DNA from: Clostridiaceae bacterium
Lineage (GTDB): Bacteria > Bacillota > Clostridia > Lachnospirales > Lachnospiraceae
Length of the DNA: 64,000 nt
Assembly: GCA_910574345.1 (NCBI GenBank)
Contig: CAJSZV010000013.1
Coordinates: 35,010-99,009 of the forward strand
Direction of reading: 5' to 3'
Each line of letters begins with the position of its first letter. Position 1 is the stretch's first letter. The translations under genes and the position numbers were made by a program. Below, one piece after another: positions 416 to 25,985 of the stretch. The notes beneath the pieces were generated by a model that ran no database searches, was not told the origin of the DNA, and saw only the letters and a program-made list of their open reading frames with translations.

Positions 416-573
416 AAGGAAAGACCTATTCATTCCGCAGTGCTTTGGAACTGATAAAACTCATAGATGGTGCATTGGAGGGAGCAGAAGCCGATGCATT
501 TGAAGAGGACACAGGGCATGTTGAGAAGGGAGGAAACCGTATGAGTCCAACGGACAATTTGTCCGCCACTTAA
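325..573 (+). CDS. NATWQG-motif small protein, N-terminally short copy
   Basis: Uncharacterised 82-residue protein. Residues 5-53 align well with the C-terminal half of the 160-residue protein at 53147, sharing YRQNATWQG, a following V-x-WAE, and FRSALEL-x-KLID. About 100 N-terminal residues of the longer relative are missing: the frame is closed by a TAG at 316, just upstream. A TTG start at 325 with AGAGG about ten bases before it could still allow expression. The first half of the coding region lies inside the inverted repeat, so the truncation may stem from the rearrangement that made the repeat. It sits upstream of the c-di-GMP riboswitches and the large surface protein, just as the long copy sits upstream of the fibro-slime protein. 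It may be a functional short form or a gene remnant. Confidence 0.5.
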   Translation: MEKKQKRQTFLVNVLYRQNATWQGRVLWAEEGKTYSFRSALELIKLIDGALEGAEADAFEEDTGHVEKGGNRMSPTDNLSAT

Positions 574-598
574 GTAAGCTGCATCAAAAAGTGGCGGA
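562..598 (+). terminator. Possible hairpin after the small gene
   Basis: TCCGCCACT (562-570) pairs with AGTGGCGGA (590-598), a nine-base stem with a 19-base loop that overlaps the stop codon at 571-573. There is no T-run, so intrinsic termination is doubtful. It could instead insulate the small gene from the promoter at 602-630. Confidence 0.35.
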
Positions 599-601
599 AG
601 G

Positions 602-630
602 GTACGGACTCTGTCTGTACAGAATATAAT
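602..630 (+). promoter_or_regulatory. Promoter with palindromic operator before the riboswitches
   Basis: A consensus TATAAT lies at 625-630, placing transcription start near 637, the 5' edge of the first aptamer. No recognisable -35 hexamer is present. Bases 602-620 instead form a near-perfect 19-bp palindrome, GTACGGAC-TCT-GTCTGTAC, with one mismatched pair. This suggests an activator-dependent promoter or a repressor site covering the -35 region. The promoter call is from sequence; the operator role is inference. Confidence 0.5.
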
Positions 631-632
631 GC

Positions 633-716
633 TCACAGAGGCAAACCATGGGAAACCATGGGACGCAAAGTCAGGGAGCTAAAGCATATGATATGCCATG
701 CCAGCCCGGCTGCTGA
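633..716 (+). promoter_or_regulatory. c-di-GMP-I riboswitch aptamer 1 (GEMM-I)
   Basis: Shows the class I order: GCAAACC, then a CCATG-GGAAAC-CATGG hairpin with a GNRA-type loop, then GGGACGCAAAG (GGGACGC at 660-666), CTAAA, a variable hairpin (GCATA-TGA-TATGC) and the closing GCCAGCC-x-GGCTGC strand. In this family the GAAA loop docks into the opposite stem and c-di-GMP binds at the three-way junction. It is the first of three copies spaced 83-84 bases apart ahead of the surface protein at 923. Confidence 0.88.
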
Positions 717-797
717 ACACAAGGGCAAACCATGGGAAACCATGGGACGCAAAACCAGGGAGCTAAAGCGTTTTTCGCTATGCCCGCCCGGTCGCTG
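717..797 (+). promoter_or_regulatory. c-di-GMP-I riboswitch aptamer 2 (GEMM-I)
   Basis: Second tandem copy, with GCAAACC, the CCATG-GGAAAC-CATGG hairpin, GGGACGC at 744-750, CTAAA and a short GCG-TTTTTC-GC hairpin. Two differences from copy 1 stand out. The receptor strand reads CGCAAAAC instead of CGCAAAGT. The closing strand reads GCCCGCCCGGTCGC, where copies 1 and 3 have GCCAGCCC. These changes may lower affinity, so this copy could be weaker or structural. Confidence 0.82.
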
Positions 798-898
798 ATT
801 CATATCAGCAAACCATGGGAAACTATGGGACGCAAAGCTATGGGGGCTAATGCGCTTTTGTGCGATGCCAGCCCAGCCGCCGGATACTTTGCATCCGA
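798..898 (+). promoter_or_regulatory. c-di-GMP-I riboswitch aptamer 3 and expression platform
   Basis: Third copy, with GCAAACC, a CCATG-GGAAAC-TATGG hairpin, GGGACGCAAAGC at 827-838, GGGGGCTAA, a GCGC-TTTT-GTGC hairpin and GCCAGCCCAGCCGCC. It is followed at once by a small stem, CGGAT/ATCCG (881-897), whose CTTTGC loop could pair with GCAAAG at 903-908, just ahead of the AAAGGAAG ribosome site. No T-run follows, so translational rather than termination control is more likely (inference). Confidence 0.85.
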
Positions 899-922
899 CT
901 TAGCAAAGAAAGGAAGAAAGTT

Positions 923-3900
923 ATGAGAAAGATAAAAAGGTATTGCAGACGAGGTTTTGCGATGCTGCTGGCATTTACTATGTGCATGGGACTGATGCAG
1001 AATGCGGCATTTGCTTCAACTGGAGAGAACAGCGTTGCTGAAGAGGTGGTTGAGGCGGAGAATATCGAAAGCAGCAGCGAAGAAACCATCGGAGAGGACA
1101 TTCAGGAAGACAGCGATCTGCAGGGAGGGACTGAGGAAGAGGGAAATTCTGTATCTGTGGAGATAATTAACATGGGAGAGGAAACAAACTCTCAGGATTC
1201 GTCAAACGGGGAAGAAGAATCACAGGCTCCAACAGAGGCAGAAGTGGATTCCCAGGCGCCGTCAGAGGAAGGAACAGATTCTCAGACACCGGCAGAAGGG
1301 AAAGAAGATTCACAGACATCGTCGGGAGAGGAAGCAGGCGTTCAGGAACCTTCCGAGAGCATGGATTCTCAAGAACCGACAGGAGCCGAAGAAGTACCTC
1401 AGGACCCAGCAGCAGGTGAAGAGGCTTCTCAGGAGACAGCCGCAGGGGAGACAGAAAGCGAAGATTCAACGGAAGACGTAACAGCTTCTGATGTTTTAGA
1501 GGAAGATGAGACACAGGCTCCCGAAGAGACCGAGACAGAAGAAGAGACAGCAGAAGAGACAGCAGCGGAAGCTTTGGAAGAGACCAAGGAAGACGAAACA
1601 GAGACAGTGGCAAAAATACAGGAGGAAACCTCTAAAACCGTCCTAACTTCTAAGGCCAGTGAGTGGAAGGATATCACCGACACCAAGCGTCCGGAAGCTA
1701 CAGAAGACGTGACTCATGATAAAGGCACATCCGATGATAAGCTGCATATCCAAGATAAAAACTGGGATATCTTCTATGATGCCGAAAAAGATGTATACAA
1801 AATCACATTCAATATTGGTAGTGATGCCGAGGCTTCGACTCAGGTTGTTGACTTGACAAAGGCTTTGGAACTGTTGGGACAGTATGCTGAGAGCGGCAAG
1901 CAGGAACTGCAGGATGCCATAGACGCCATTGAGAAGCCTGTGAAGGGTGATGCCGGCAAGGCGCCGGAAATGGGTGAGATCGACGTTGAGCAGCCTAAGG
2001 AACCTGAAAAGCCTGTGGCGCCGGATGCACCGGAGAAACCGCAGGAGCCGGAGAAGCCTGTGGAGCCAGGCAAGCCGGAGGGTATAGACGAGTCTTTGCA
2101 GAATGCGTGGGATACACTATTTGATAAGCTGAGTGGCAATGACAATCCTAATATCAACACCAAGGAAAATGTTTTGAAAGAAATGGAAGCCTTGGGGATT
2201 AATACTGGCGACAAATATGTCCAAGATTATGCTCAGTATATGGTGAGTAAGGCCGACAATGCTTTTCTGATTCATATTTTTGAAACGAAGGGTGAAGGCG
2301 GCAACGAGAGCATGTTTAAGTATTTCATGCAGTGGGAAAGTAGTTATAACGGGAAAGGTGAACCCACAGATGCTCAGATTGCCGAGGCGATCGCCAGTGT
2401 GCAGCGTCAGGATAATCGTCTGACTGTACCAGAATACACAGTTGACAAGAACTCAGAAGCATACAAGGAATACGAAGCCAGCATGGAAGAATACAGTTCT
2501 CAGTATGCTGAATACGAAACAAAGCTGAAAGAGTACGAAGCCGCCCAGGCAGAATGGCTTGAGAAGTATGGTGAGAATTCTCCCGAGTATCAGGCATATC
2601 TGGCCCAGATGGCCGAGTATCAGGTGAAACTGGACGCATACAATGCAGCGAAAGCAGAGGCAGAAGCAGAATATGCAGCGGCAGTGGCTGACTATGAGGC
2701 TAAGAAAGCCGAGATCGAGAAGAACTATGCAGATGACCAGGCCGCTTATGATGCAGCCATTGAGAAACTGAAAGCGGATTTTGACCGCCGGGTTGAAGCC
2801 GATGTTCTGCAGCCAGGCGATGTGAAGAAGTTTGAGCTCTATTTGACCAGCGATTCCAAGCACACCTACAAGTATCAGACAGGCAGTTTTACCCTGGCAA
2901 CTCCGGGCTGGAACAATCCCAACGGTACGGTGGCTGGTTTTGACGGCCAGATTCTTCCCGATGAGTATGTGGATCATGCAAAGTATCATGTGACGATGAC
3001 GGCAGATCCGATGCAGAACTTGTTTGATGCTATCGGAATGACAGACCCAAATCATCCGAACAACAAGAATAATATTCTTGGGGATGGACGCGTTGGTCTG
3101 GATTATGATGGTAACGGTTATGTGATCGGCTATCCCGGCTATTGGGAGAACGATATCAAGGAATTCTTAAGTAAATACGATGGGGAAACCCTGGGGGAAA
3201 AGCTGAACGCATACCTTTTGGATTACTATAATTCAAAAGACGGCACAAATTACACCACCATTAACGACCTGATTCAGAACAATCCCGAGGCACAGGTTGA
3301 ACTGACCAAGACTACTACCAGTGGCAATAAGTGGTTTAACCTTGATGGTGAGAAGTTCGTAGTGGATGCCCATCTGGAGACAGTCAAATACGATACATTC
3401 TATAAGCAGTTATTTAACTTCGCTTTCGGCGATGAAGAAGACATTAACAAGATCCTGGAAGGAGCCAAGTTTAATCCGGTGACCAACCGCTGGGAATATG
3501 AGAATGACTCCTGGACGGATAACGGCTATCAGAATGCATTGTACTACTACATGAACCATCAGGAGATCTGGCAGAAGACAGATGCTTACTTTAACTCTCT
3601 GCTGGACGGCGGTCTTTCCAAGGAACAGGCTACCTGGACCAGTCTGATGATGGCTCTGAATATCGATGGAGAACTGACCGGCAACGACTGGCAGGATACC
3701 AAGTGGCCCTGGTACAGTTCTATCGGTTTAGAACGGGTAGATATTGATTTTAACTTAAGCAAGAAAGACGGAGAGACCGGTGAGACCATCACCAAGAGCG
3801 AAACAGAGTTCCAGATTTACTACATTGATACGGTTAAGAATGAAGATGGTACAGAAACCAAAGTTAACATGTACTGCACTTACAATGAGGAAAGCAACTC

Positions 3901-4567
3901 CTACACATTCGTAACCACACCAAGCACCATCTGGACTAAAGATGGCCAGCTGAATATTGACTATGCCATGATGAAGGATATCGTTTATTATCTTCAGGAG
4001 ATGACAGCTCCTGAGGGTTATGAGCGGGATACCAATGTCTATATCGTTATGAATGAGGAAGACTACAACAAGCTGACAGAGGAAGACAGGGCCGCACTAG
4101 AAGGTACTTTCGACAAGTTCCTTGACATGGAAAAATCAAAAGATGGTCTGACCTTCGATACGGACTTTGTCAATGTAAAGATCGTACCGCCGACTCCGGA
4201 TCCAGAACCAACACCAGACCCAGATCCAGACCCGGACCCGGACCCAACGCCAGACCCCGATCCGGACCCCACACCAGATCCTGAGGACCCAGGCGATAGC
4301 GGAGACGAGCCCAATGAACCTGGAACAAGAATTCCTGATGTAGATGTACCATTGACCTTTATTCCGGACCCAGAAGTACCATTGGCCAATATTCCAAATG
4401 AAAATGTTCCTTTGGTTTCCATTATGGACTGGGATGTACCTTTAGCCAGTGTGCCGAGGACAGGAGATATTTCTACCGCATGGTATGCTATGACGATTCT
4501 GTCTGCATGCTGTCTGCTGGTAATGGGTATGCTGGATAAGAAAAAACGTGAGGAAGAAAACGGCTGA
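923..4567 (+). CDS. Large wall-anchored surface protein under c-di-GMP riboswitch control
   Basis: Secreted adhesin-like protein of 1,214 residues. The start at 923 follows AAAGGAAG and gives a clean signal peptide (residues 1-31, basic start, FAMLLAFTMCMGL core). Residues about 32-250 are a Glu/Ser/Thr/Gln-rich stalk with repeated SQ-x-P segments. Residues 505-625 are Tyr/Ala/Glu-rich, probably coiled coil, resembling streptococcal alanine-rich stalks. Residues 940-1085 include a CnaB/SpaA-like fold with a YYLQEMTAPEGY motif. A Pro-Asp repeat (1089-1126), four VPL-x-x-IP-type repeats, the sorting signal VPRTGD (from 1177), a membrane segment and a basic tail follow. The sortase at 4694 is the obvious anchoring enzyme. 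Expression is probably set by c-di-GMP through the three upstream aptamers. The ligand bound by the surface domain is unknown. Confidence 0.88.
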   Translation: MRKIKRYCRRGFAMLLAFTMCMGLMQNAAFASTGENSVAEEVVEAENIESSSEETIGEDIQEDSDLQGGTEEEGNSVSVEIINMGEETNSQDSSNGEEESQAPTEAEVDSQAPSEEGTDSQTPAEGKEDSQTSSGEEAGVQEPSESMDSQEPTGAEEVPQDPAAGEEASQETAAGETESEDSTEDVTASDVLEEDETQAPEETETEEETAEETAAEALEETKEDETETVAKIQEETSKTVLTSKASEWKDITDTKRPEATEDVTHDKGTSDDKLHIQDKNWDIFYDAEKDVYKITFNIGSDAEASTQVVDLTKALELLGQYAESGKQELQDAIDAIEKPVKGDAGKAPEMGEIDVEQPKEPEKPVAPDAPEKPQEPEKPVEPGKPEGIDESLQNAWDTLFDKLSGNDNPNINTKENVLKEMEALGINTGDKYVQDYAQYMVSKADNAFLIHIFETKGEGGNESMFKYFMQWESSYNGKGEPTDAQIAEAIASVQRQDNRLTVPEYTVDKNSEAYKEYEASMEEYSSQYAEYETKLKEYEAAQAEWLEKYGENSPEYQAYLAQMAEYQVKLDAYNAAKAEAEAEYAAAVADYEAKKAEIEKNYADDQAAYDAAIEKLKADFDRRVEADVLQPGDVKKFELYLTSDSKHTYKYQTGSFTLATPGWNNPNGTVAGFDGQILPDEYVDHAKYHVTMTADPMQNLFDAIGMTDPNHPNNKNNILGDGRVGLDYDGNGYVIGYPGYWENDIKEFLSKYDGETLGEKLNAYLLDYYNSKDGTNYTTINDLIQNNPEAQVELTKTTTSGNKWFNLDGEKFVVDAHLETVKYDTFYKQLFNFAFGDEEDINKILEGAKFNPVTNRWEYENDSWTDNGYQNALYYYMNHQEIWQKTDAYFNSLLDGGLSKEQATWTSLMMALNIDGELTGNDWQDTKWPWYSSIGLERVDIDFNLSKKDGETGETITKSETEFQIYYIDTVKNEDGTETKVNMYCTYNEESNSYTFVTTPSTIWTKDGQLNIDYAMMKDIVYYLQEMTAPEGYERDTNVYIVMNEEDYNKLTEEDRAALEGTFDKFLDMEKSKDGLTFDTDFVNVKIVPPTPDPEPTPDPDPDPDPDPTPDPDPDPTPDPEDPGDSGDEPNEPGTRIPDVDVPLTFIPDPEVPLANIPNENVPLVSIMDWDVPLASVPRTGDISTAWYAMTILSACCLLVMGMLDKKKREEENG

Positions 4568-4584
4568 TTGTCTTAGTGCAAGTG

Positions 4585-4618
4585 AACCGGAATCCACAAA
4601 AGCGGATTCCGGTTTTTT
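4585..4618 (+). terminator. Intrinsic terminator after the surface protein
   Basis: AACCGGAATCC pairs with GGATTCCGGTT across an eight-base loop and is followed by a T-run. It separates the surface-protein gene from the sortase, so sortase transcription may depend on readthrough or on its own promoter. Confidence 0.85.
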
Positions 4619-4693
4619 GCCCGAGCAGAGGGAGAAGCCTCCCCTGCTCCATTAAAAGTACAAAACAAGAAAGACTGAGACAAGGGAGGAATC

Positions 4694-5482
4694 ATGGAAG
4701 GGAAAAGGAAAAAATGGAAGAAAATGCTTATGGCTGTATCGGCCGTTATGCTGGCAGCAGGTCTTGCAGTGATTATACAAAAAAACCTGGATTATCAAAA
4801 AGGAGCGGATGATTATTCCGAGGCGGAACAAATAGCAGAAGCAGCAGAATGGAAGACGCCGGGAATCCGTGAATCCAAAGAAAAGGAAACCGTAGAGAAA
4901 GAATCAGACCCTTATATACAATCCCTTGCTCAGCTGAATATAGAGGCATTGAAAGAAATAAATGATGAAGTAATCGGATGGATTATGATACCGGACAGTG
5001 AAGTTTCCTACCCTCTTATACAGGGAGCGGACAACAGCTACTACCTGGAGAGAACATGGAAGAAAGAAAAAAGCGCCGTAGGTTCTATCTTTCTGGAATG
5101 TCAGGTGAGCAAAGACTTAAGTGATTTTAATACCATTATTTACGGACATAAGATGAGAAACGGTTCTATGTTCGGAAGTCTGGAACAATATAAAGAAGAA
5201 ACTTATTGGAGGGAGCATCCGAGGGTGTATATTGTCAGCGGGCAGGAAGTTCACCGCTATGAGATTTATGCTGTTTATGAAGCCGGGGTGCGCGACCTTA
5301 CCTACCATTTAAAGATAGAGGATCCGGAGAAAAAGGAAGAGTTTATACGATTTGGAAAAGAACACTCAGTGATTGATACAGGGATTGAGCCGACTGCGAG
5401 GGATCGGATCATAACCCTGTCAACCTGCACGGGAAGAGGCTACCGTACACGATGGGTGGTACAGGCGGCTGAATACAGATAA
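4694..5482 (+). CDS. Class B-type sortase
   Basis: Membrane-bound cysteine transpeptidase of 262 residues that cleaves a C-terminal sorting motif and joins the protein to the cell wall. An N-terminal anchor spans residues about 10-28. The catalytic set is visible: His in IIYGHKM, Cys in TLSTCTGRG, and the Arg of the YRTRWVV strand shortly after it. The long linker and the TLSTC-x-(10) arrangement fit the SrtB family better than SrtA. GGGAGGA precedes the ATG. It lies 126 bases after a surface protein ending in VPRTGD, its likely substrate. A second hairpin (GAGCAG/CTGCTC near 4623-4649) lies between the two genes. Confidence 0.88.
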   Translation: MEGKRKKWKKMLMAVSAVMLAAGLAVIIQKNLDYQKGADDYSEAEQIAEAAEWKTPGIRESKEKETVEKESDPYIQSLAQLNIEALKEINDEVIGWIMIPDSEVSYPLIQGADNSYYLERTWKKEKSAVGSIFLECQVSKDLSDFNTIIYGHKMRNGSMFGSLEQYKEETYWREHPRVYIVSGQEVHRYEIYAVYEAGVRDLTYHLKIEDPEKKEEFIRFGKEHSVIDTGIEPTARDRIITLSTCTGRGYRTRWVVQAAEYR

Positions 5483-5497
5483 ATTATAAAAATTTCC

Positions 5498-5525
5498 TTG
5501 ACAACTCATTATTATTTGTTATAAT
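5498..5525 (+). promoter_or_regulatory. Promoter of the str operon
   Basis: TTGACA at 5498-5503, 16 bases, TATAAT at 5520-5525. It directly precedes a 90-base leader and rpsL, as expected for a strong housekeeping promoter. The leader contains repeated GCGTGCAA words that may form a small hairpin. Confidence 0.85.
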
Positions 5526-6725: not shown

Positions 6726-8846
6726 TTGGCTGGAAGAGAATATCCGTTGGAGAGAACCAGGAATATCGGAATCATGGCCCATATCGATGCCGGCAAGACC
6801 ACATTGACAGAGCGTATTCTGTATTATACTGGTGTAAACTACAAAATCGGTGATACTCATGAAGGTACTGCTACCATGGACTGGATGGAGCAGGAGCAGG
6901 AAAGGGGCATCACCATCACTTCAGCTGCTACAACCTGCCACTGGACGCTGCAGGAGAACTGCAAACCGAAGCCAGGCGCTTTGGAGCATCGTATTAACAT
7001 TATCGATACTCCAGGCCACGTTGATTTTACAGTAGAGGTTGAGCGTTCCCTTCGTGTACTTGACGGCGCTGTTGGTGTCTTCTGTGCAAAGGGTGGTGTG
7101 GAACCGCAGTCTGAGAATGTATGGCGTCAGGCGGATACCTATAATGTTCCTCGTATGGCATTTATTAATAAGATGGATATTATGGGTGCTGACTTTTACG
7201 GCGCAGTTGAGCAGATCAAGACAAGACTTGGCAAGAATGCCATCTGCCTGCAGCTGCCCATCGGAAAAGAAGATGAGTTTAAAGGAATCATCGATCTCTT
7301 TGAGATGAAAGCCTACATCTATAATGATAACAAGGGCGAAGATGTTTCCATCACTGACGTTCCGGATGATATGAAAGATGATGCAGAACTTTACCGTACA
7401 GAGCTGGTGGAGAAGATCTGTGAGTTGGATGATGATCTGATGATGCAGTATCTGGAGGGGGAAGAACCTTCTGTAGAAGCGATGAAGGCCGCTTTGAGAA
7501 AGGCTACCTGCCAGTGCACTGCGATACCAGTATGCTGCGGTTCTGCATATAGAAACAAAGGTGTCCAGAAACTGTTGGACGCAGTTCTGGAATATATGCC
7601 GGCTCCTACCGACATTCCTTCTATTAAGGGTGTGGATATGGAAGGCAACGAGATTGAGAGACACTCTTCTGATGAGGAGCCCTTCTCAGCTCTGGCATTT
7701 AAGATTATGACAGATCCATTCGTTGGAAAGCTTGCCTTCTTCCGTGTGTACTCCGGTACTATGAACTCCGGTTCTTACGTACTGAATGCCACCAAAGGCA
7801 AGAAGGAGCGTGTGGGCCGTATCCTTCAGATGCATGCCAACAAGAGACAGGAACTGGATAAGGTTTACTCCGGTGATATCGCGGCTGCCGTAGGTTTTAA
7901 GATGACCACAACCGGTGATACTATCTGTGACGAACAGCATCCGGTTATTCTGGAGTCTATGGAGTTCCCAGAGCCCGTTATTGACATCGCTATTGAGCCT
8001 AAGACAAAAGCTGGTCAGGGCAAGATGGGCGAGGCTCTTGCAAAGCTGGCCGAGGAGGATCCTACCTTCCGTGCCAAGACCAATCAGGAGACAGGCCAGA
8101 CCATTATCTCCGGTATGGGCGAGCTTCATCTGGAGATCATCGTAGACCGTCTGCTGAGAGAGTTTAACGTAGAGGCTAACGTAGGCGCTCCTCAGGTTGC
8201 ATACAAGGAGACCATCACCAAGGCAGTTGACGTGGACAGCAAGTATGCCAAGCAGTCCGGAGGCCGCGGACAGTATGGTCACTGTAAGGTACACTTTGAG
8301 CCCATGGATGCCAATGCAGAGCAGACCTTTAAGTTTGAGTCCAGCGTAGTGGGCGGTGCTATTCCCAAGGAATATATTCCGGCTGTAGGCGCAGGAATCG
8401 AGGAAGCATCAAAATCCGGTATTCTGGGAGGATTCCCGGTACTGGGTATCAGTGCTAACGTTTACGACGGTTCCTACCATGAGGTTGACTCCAACGAGAT
8501 GGCATTTAAGATTGCCGGTTCTCTGGCATTTAAGGATGCTATGCAGAAAGCAGGGGCCATCCTTCTTGAGCCCATTATGAAGGTGGAAGTAACCATGCCT
8601 GAGGACTACATGGGAGATGTAATCGGTGATATCAACTCCCGCCGCGGCCGTATCGAGGGTATGGAGGATATCGGCGGCGGCAAGATGGTGAAAGCCTATG
8701 TTCCGCTGTCTGAGATGTTCGGATATTCAACAGACTTACGTTCCAAAACACAGGGACGCGGCAACTACTCCATGTTCTTTGACAGATATGAGCCTGTACC
8801 AAAGTCCGTTCAGGAAAAAGTTATTGCTGAAAGAAAAGGCAAATAA
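6726..8846 (+). CDS. fusA: Elongation factor G
   Basis: GTPase of 706 residues that drives ribosomal translocation and, with RRF, recycling. The G motifs are intact: AHIDAGKTT (P-loop), the RGITI switch region, DTPGHVDF and NKMD. The C-terminal domain IV segment GGRGQYGH is also present. The gene uses a TTG start, supported by AGGAGG eight bases upstream and by the conserved start [15 protein letters not shown]. It lies 15 bases after rpsG in the str operon. Confidence 0.98.
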
Positions 8847-25605: not shown

Positions 25606-25624
25606 TATTATTTATATGATGCTA

Positions 25625-25679
25625 GGGTCAAAAGGTCATGTATGACATGCTTGCATGTCGATACATGACCTTTTGACCC
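25625..25679 (+). terminator. Very long hairpin after the wall-binding protein
   Basis: GGGTCAAAAGGTCATGTAT pairs with ATACATGACCTTTTGACCC, with an inner GACATGC/GCATGTC stem, about 26 pairs in all and almost no loop. An A-run follows and no T-run, so on the plus strand it is not a classic terminator. It may act as a bidirectional barrier ahead of the S10 promoter. Confidence 0.7.
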
Positions 25680-25737
25680 GAAAAAACATGAAAAAGTAGC
25701 CCGATAGGGCGGATTTTGAATGTTTCTAGAAAAGTGC

Positions 25738-25766
25738 TTGCAATTATCTGGAAAATGTGCTAAGCT
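25738..25766 (+). promoter_or_regulatory. Promoter of the S10-spc superoperon
   Basis: TTGCAA at 25738-25743, 17 bases, TAAGCT at 25761-25766. The -10 is weak, but position and spacing suit the main promoter for rpsJ and everything downstream. Confidence 0.6.
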
Positions 25767-25771
25767 AACAA

Positions 25772-25985
25772 AGCTGTGGCATGATAGCGATGAAACGAGA
25801 GGTTGCTGCCTGAAAGAAGGCAGGTTTTCCGTGGAGCGAATGTCAAGTTAGGAAACTGGCGACAAGTCACTGTACAAACAGATATTCTGCAAGGCAAGAT
25901 GTAGAAATTGGTGTGCCGGAAGGTTATGACACACCCGGAAACGTGTACAGTCACCGCTTGTCGTACTTCATGAAAAGTGCGAAAA
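25772..25985 (+). promoter_or_regulatory. Structured leader of the S10 operon
   Basis: A leader of over 200 bases with strong folding potential. CGACAAG (25860-25866) pairs with CTTGTCG (25957-25963), CTGTACA (25870-25876) with TGTACAG (25944-25950), and GTGTG (25911-25915) with CACAC (25930-25934). An earlier TGCCT/AGGCA hairpin stands near 25807. Nested pairing over this distance looks like a protein-binding mRNA element. S10 leaders in other bacteria are controlled by L4, encoded by the third gene here; that role is inference. Confidence 0.65.

Follow-up and report, generated by a model that had tools for sequence, protein, structure and literature searches.

Three adjacent c-di-GMP-I aptamers with a putative shared translational platform ahead of an LPXTG-type surface-protein gene

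Introduction

Riboswitches for c-di-GMP are enriched as tandem complete switches, according to PMC12452182, and a survey excerpt counts 347 doublets and 12 triplets in the c-di-GMP-I class, filed under multiple expression platforms (PMC9481103). The accessible passages of both surveys concern the same aptamer class as the one treated here and mention neither four or five copies nor a shared translational platform. The closest described triple is the Bc3-5 RNA of Bacillus thuringiensis, in which, in the portion of the paper at hand, each of the three class I aptamers has a terminator, and four Bc3-5 gene products carry predicted wall-anchoring motifs (PMC4759541). Homologous adjacent aptamers with a single platform are known from the glycine riboswitch, which has another aptamer and ligand and for which cooperativity has been shown, as summarized in an excerpt of PMC9481103. 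Selectivity within the class follows position 20 in the excerpts available: G is associated with c-di-GMP and A with cGAMP, A20 being the GEMM-Ib change (PMC9481103, PMC9262584, PMC6274999), as in the GEMM-Ib riboswitches of Geobacter (PMC6456294, PMC8835794, PMC6274999).

Here we describe the leader of a surface-protein gene within a 64,000-nucleotide stretch (the window) of a Clostridiaceae genome. Like Bc3-5 it holds three class I aptamers in series, and like the glycine riboswitch it appears to place adjacent homologous aptamers ahead of a single platform.

Results

Three c-di-GMP-I aptamers in series

Three plus-strand matches to the Rfam c-di-GMP-I model (RF01051, gathering score 35 bits) run end to end ahead of the gene: copy 1 at 630..717 (75.6 bits), copy 2 at 714..799 (72.3 bits) and copy 3 at 797..884 (68.5 bits), copy 2 overlapping copy 1 by 4 bases and copy 3 by 3. 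An earlier note, made from the letters alone, had recognized three class I cores and proposed a covariance-model search, in which all three copies thus exceed the gathering score. A string search finds GGGACGC at 660, 744 and 827, exactly at the 83-84-base spacing given in that note, and GCAAACC at 641, 725 and 808. Chance is excluded because the E-values of the three copies are 1.0e-14 to 5.5e-13 in the search of this one genome, and none of the 14 control genomes contains a match.

A cmscan of the window does not report copy 2 as c-di-GMP-I and covers it with a c-di-GMP-I-GGC match of 45.4 bits (that family's cut-off is 59), whereas the search of the whole genome reports all three copies; the omission is probably due to overlap removal against the adjacent matches. 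A flank-trimmed model built partly from these three copies (R2; an untrimmed first model missed copy 2) places their cores at 639-714 (87.4 bits), 723-796 (84.4 bits) and 806-881 (82.5 bits), separated by linkers of 8 nt (715..722) and 9 nt (797..805).

In the alignments, the GAAA loop in P2, the conserved GACGCAAA core and the receptor side of P3 are present in all three copies, with copy 2 departing in part. The departures that the earlier note had seen in copy 2 are real when set against both relatives that carry the triple: on the closing strand an A50-U89 pair plus an A49/C90 mismatch is common to copy 2 here and in both relatives, and on the receptor side C replaces A just before the conserved G, among the three triples of the genus in this genome only. 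At the ligand-contacting base, however, the copy that departs is copy 3, not copy 2. Copies 1 and 2 keep G20, A47 and C92; in copy 3, A47 and C92 are retained while base 807, at the G20 position, is A. The numbering follows the Vc2 aptamer and agrees with literature passages. The closing helix P1 is weak in arrays, but its loss was rejected as their hallmark, since 31 single aptamers, of which 29 come from the family and 2 from the genus, score no better in the same test and are worse in energy. The mean pair run was 2.2 for these, 2.1 for first, 2.5 for middle and 3.0 for last copies, and the median energies were 0.4, -0.7, -1.45 and -2.0, respectively.

A single platform after the last copy

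Immediately 3' of copy 3 the sequence reads CGGATACTTTGCATCCG-N5-GCAAAG, followed by the Shine-Dalgarno sequence and the ATG. Predicted platform stem 1 (881..897, plus strand) pairs CGGAT 881-885 with ATCCG 893-897 and starts at C93 of copy 3. Stem 2 (887..908, plus strand) pairs CTTTGC 887-892 with GCAAAG 903-908, and we infer that the two stems fold into an H-type pseudoknot. One base separates the end of stem 2 from the Shine-Dalgarno AAGGA (910..914, plus strand), which lies 8 bases before the ATG at 923; in another array of the same genome, C1 (L276), stem 2 overlaps the Shine-Dalgarno itself (GCAAAGGAG).

A single conserved platform follows the last copy both in the window and across the 59 arrays collected below. 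Stem 1 occurs as GGAT/ATCC (30 arrays), GGAT/GTCC (18), GGAC/GTCC (6), GGAA/TTCC (3) and other forms (2), and it covaries, with compensatory changes at the fourth pair. CTTTGC and GCAAAG occur together in 57 of the 59, and no covariation was found for stem 2 in these arrays, so its support is complementarity plus invariance. Since the pattern used to find the genomes fixes CTTTGC, part of its invariance may be by construction, although within these genomes the arrays were gathered by the aptamer model alone. Base 93 is C in 59/59 last copies and in 1/81 others.

The aptamer cores of the same leader are complementary to segment 887-896 as well, with duplexes of -10.4, -8.2 and -10.2 kcal/mol. 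Across the arrays the common aptamer core GGACGCAAAG, found exactly in 64 of 140 copies, is the complement of CTTTGCRTCC. The best core duplex is more stable than stems 1 and 2 together in 58/59 arrays (mean -12.4 versus -9.1 kcal/mol, as plain nearest-neighbour sums that leave out aptamer opening, loop entropy and pseudoknot terms, and with five cores missed by the string search left unscored). The exception is the C8 array of the same genome (L275). Taken over all 14-nt windows in the arrays, with those of the cores counted, the best 5% already have a mean of -10.2, and no covariation was found that supports a duplex between core and platform. The 5' strand of aptamer stem P2 takes 52 distinct hexamers among the 140 copies, versus the near-invariant CTTTGC/GCAAAG. 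Such constancy would follow if one of the strands were also constrained to match the conserved core of the aptamer.

Arrays with the same platform across genomes

The genome holds seven RF01051 matches, comprising the triple and two abutting doubles. RF01051 matches occur in 6 of 26 genomes of the genus and, under stricter filters, in 80 of 200 sampled genomes of the family. A triple at the same spacing is present in 3 of the 26, this genome included, and the copies in the two relatives score 65-78 bits. One relative has the same gene order, rpoC - small ORF - array - surface protein - srtB - rpsL - rpsG - fusA (ribosomal and polymerase genes named by eye), and its surface protein is 76% identical over 1119 aligned positions.

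A pattern for the first part of the platform, scanned over genome contigs, returned at least 119 stretches. R2 was run on 24 of these with right-looking downstream bases and on the three loci of the own genome. At 23 of the 24 it gave at least two aptamer matches (E 0.0041 or better), and the only failure was L095, with zero matches; the other 95 yielded one R2 match in all (E 0.34). As this pattern prescribes much of the platform, the 20 platform-holding genomes were searched again with the aptamer model alone. This search tallied 169 matches. Rescoring 80 stretches, taken around the places of the matches listed and from the own genome and G004, G025 and G107, gave 180 matches. Of these, 179 fall into 86 groups (47 of two, 14 of three, 6 of four and 19 single), and the 180th, in L257 at 57.9 bits, makes the array there a double instead of a single.

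Among the 67 groups with at least two copies, 59 fit the platform pattern, namely 41 doubles, 14 triples and 4 quadruples from 20 genomes including this one. Outside the 59, the platform is also borne by L246 (a GGGT variant), by L257, and by L215 and L216, which have five copies each, the fifth unreported by the model. L210 and L224 extend past the fetched stretch and were excluded from the platform count, and in L242, L243 and L256 the platform is absent 3' of the last match. Six further platform-bearing groups have one scored copy each: in L237, L255, L263 and L270 the 3' end of a further copy is visible by eye immediately upstream, L226 has merely a core-like fragment there, and L278 looks single. 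Platform-bearing groups thus have two or more scored copies in 63 of 69 cases. Junctions measure 0-9 nt in 76 of 81 cases in the 59 arrays. All array counts are uncorrected for kinship, and eight array pairs are more than 90% alike. The earlier note had called a natural triple rare, which depends on context, given that this platform goes with two to five abutting copies in the Clostridia examined.

Position 20 of the last copy

The A20 of copy 3 is common to all three triples of the genus. In the 59 arrays, G occupies position 20 in 57/59 first, 18/22 middle and 25/59 last copies (first versus last, Fisher P 4e-11, kinship uncorrected), and the last copies divide into 27 with A, 25 with G, 5 with C and 2 with T.

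No cGAMP-making enzyme was found in this genome by a search for SMODS cyclases and for the Hypr serine in GGDEF proteins; the assembly is 97% complete and a gene could be missing. The partial literature account has Hypr enzymes, which make cGAMP, carry serine in place of the aspartate of GxxxGD. Among the six GGDEF matches here, five keep that aspartate and the sixth lacks a GGDEF motif. We assume that the serine position corresponds to the aspartate of GxxxGD in these proteins. As a ligand of copy 3, cGAMP was set aside because an enzyme that makes it was not found in the genome. The occurrence of C and T at position 20 looks more like relaxed constraint on last copies, which is the simpler reading of A20 than cGAMP sensing.

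Junctions and the 5' end of the leader

The linker 797..805 and its flanks can form the hairpin GCTGAT-TCAT-ATCAGC. Seven last junctions of triples had the length needed for tabulation, and six of them have at least 3 inner pairs. Over all 30 long junctions, 12 have this many, compared with 10.5 when partners are swapped, and the observed mean is reached in 3.8% of 1000 swaps. Junction hairpins as a feature of arrays are kept as a remark, the statistical support over the 30 long junctions being weak.

A hairpin (CCGCCACTT/AAGTGGCGG) read directly at 563..597, plus strand, is a candidate 5' cap; the GCAT of its loop may pair with the ATGC adjoining copy 1, here over just 4 bp. In L275, L276 and other arrays, a GC-rich hairpin lies 30-90 nt upstream of the first copy, and its loop is complementary to the bases that immediately precede that copy. 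Pairing of at least 6 bases between such a loop and the bases before copy 1 occurs in 33 of 58 arrays, the triple of the window not among them, versus a mean of 21 and a maximum of 29 in 500 swaps of partners. The mean run is 5.47 versus 4.89 for swapped partners (sd 0.13), and the two doubles of this genome reach 8 and 7 pairs. A second pseudoknot at the 5' end is thus possible in part of the arrays, including these two doubles. The motif before copy 1 was also tried by eye as a partner of the platform, which failed in about half of the arrays inspected; the upstream hairpin loop is its better partner, though not in the window array.

A TATAAT at 625..630 (plus strand, read directly) ends 10 bases before G20 (base 640) of copy 1 and may be a -10 box. 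The promoter scan of the window does not report it, and the assignment is tentative.

The downstream gene and its surroundings

The gene after the platform (923..4567, plus strand) encodes a secreted surface protein of 1214 aa with a C-terminal sorting signal of VPRTGD type. It matches the NCBIfam family LPXTG_double (NF033073) at 61.9 bits (cut-off 48) and has zero Pfam matches above the curated cut-off. An intrinsic terminator-like hairpin with a T-run, read directly at 4587..4618 (plus strand) and absent from the terminator scan, follows the gene, and next comes a class B sortase gene (4694..5482, plus strand; TIGR03064, 179.2 bits, cut-off 153.75). The wall-anchored protein that the earlier note had placed downstream is thereby borne out. 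Its view that the gene fits c-di-GMP control of attachment takes for granted a direction of regulation on which the sequence is silent.

Elsewhere the arrays also stand before surface proteins. By eye, the downstream proteins start with a signal-peptide-like sequence at all 26 array loci examined (L097 has only 47 aa). S-layer homology domains score above cut-off in 5 of 11 downstream proteins run against Pfam; several others end, by eye, in LPXTG-like signals, and an NCBIfam LPXTG cut-off is exceeded by the window protein and that of L009, with L010 just below. The proteins downstream of the arrays are surface proteins; that they are adhesins would be a further step. The downstream proteins of L036, L084 and L092 have similar C-terminal ends (..D.VLAEFF..), and L036 has a weak S-layer homology match.

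The surface-protein and sortase genes (923-5482) sit between rpoC and rpsL, within the familiar rpoBC-rpsL-rpsG-fusA-tuf stretch (names by eye), and relative G003 shows the same placement as far as its stretch was examined. A TTGACA-16-TATAAT promoter match (12/12) at 5498-5525, ahead of rpsL, perhaps serves the genes past the inserted pair. Upstream, L008:7629-8415 (window -371 to 415) contains nested perfect inverted repeats with 100% complementary arms of 287 nt (7629-7915 / 8001-8287) and 149 nt (8001-8149 / 8267-8415), and 21-nt near-palindromes of ACCAAAAAGTAAACTTTTTGG type. G003 has only a 37-nt imperfect pair at this site. The repeats are either invertible DNA or an assembly fold-back. 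Farther downstream, a Clostridiales-1 RNA lies immediately upstream of the S10 ribosomal leader (25617-25865).

Discussion

Our best reading of the leader, from sequence, is that what is new is the combination of adjacent c-di-GMP-I aptamers with one translational platform that they share. On balance it is probable that the three aptamers share this platform and control the LPXTG-type surface protein; linkers of 8-9 nt leave no room for separate platforms or terminators. The earlier note had cited the triple of B. thuringiensis as a precedent, which holds insofar as a triple exists there; by the published excerpt its aptamers have a terminator each, whereas the window aptamers are adjacent, with short linkers and one platform (PMC4759541).

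How such a leader could work is suggested by its complementarities. The segment CTTTGCATCC could, as a weaker inference, pair alternatively with the GGACGCAAAG core of any unliganded copy. Since any unliganded copy could capture the complement, the pseudoknot would need all copies occupied and would form only once all of them are folded on ligand, and this requirement would make the response to c-di-GMP steep. Ligand would then favour the pseudoknot and lower translation. A broader proposal can be offered only tentatively and is rather doubtful as it stands. Two to five adjacent aptamers may act as one receptor whose single translational platform is a split core copy (GGAY ... GCAAAG) around the complement CTTTGCRTCC; the platform would read whether all copies are occupied, copy number would set steepness, the selectivity base of the last copy would be free to change, and the arrays would be a distinct class in gut Clostridia.

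The sign of regulation is close to a coin toss, leaning slightly to OFF. The same array and platform with the opposite sign, such that c-di-GMP raises surface-protein output, has somewhat less than an even chance: Bc3-5 is described as ON in the text available (PMC4759541), and high c-di-GMP raises sortase-anchored proteins in Clostridioides difficile via class II switches, yet in the same partial source class I switches of that species act as OFF, including one before a putative adhesin gene (PMC6200980), and stem 2 encroaches on the Shine-Dalgarno. A different possibility is that the leader integrates two signals, with copies 1 and 2 sensing c-di-GMP and copy 3 either permissive or sensing 3',3'-cGAMP. 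The GEMM-Ib change itself (PMC9481103, PMC9262584 and PMC6274999, in excerpt), its presence in copy 3 of all three triples of the genus and the fall of G from 57/59 first to 25/59 last copies (P 4e-11) all speak for such mixed specificity. We nevertheless consider it unlikely, given that a SMODS cyclase match was not found in the genome, that the five GGDEF proteins with a recognizable motif keep the aspartate, and that C and T occur at position 20 as well; with copies 1 and 2 at G20, the leader also differs in this from the Geobacter GEMM-Ib switches.

It is quite unlikely that the leader comprises three independent riboswitches, each with an off/on decision of its own as in the Bc3-5 RNA, which is how the published triples and doublets are described in the passages available (PMC4759541, PMC9481103, PMC12452182). 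The linkers are too short for this, at 8-9 nt here and 0-9 nt in 76/81 junctions, and the scan reports no terminator-like site on the plus strand from 400 to 923, a scan that also misses the 4587-4618 hairpin. Very unlikely, finally, is the notion that only one copy senses and the others are functionless remnants of duplication. Tandem repeats arise easily, and a few copies elsewhere score low (24.4 bits in L061 and L097), but the three window copies score 68-76 bits, those of the two relatives at the same spacing 65-78 bits, and 63/69 platform-bearing groups have two or more scored copies.

The titles and abstract openings listed in our literature search include none on c-di-GMP-I arrays that share a platform or on arrays of four or five. 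The 347 doublets and 12 triplets counted in the survey excerpt may include some of the arrays described here, unremarked.

If the platform is shared, the arrays would be natural c-di-GMP receptors built of several aptamers and offering two to five sites. Removal of single copies could then directly address why this class is so often tandem, be it for steepness, threshold or mixed ligands. The arrays also point to sets of surface proteins that may be under c-di-GMP control in Clostridia.
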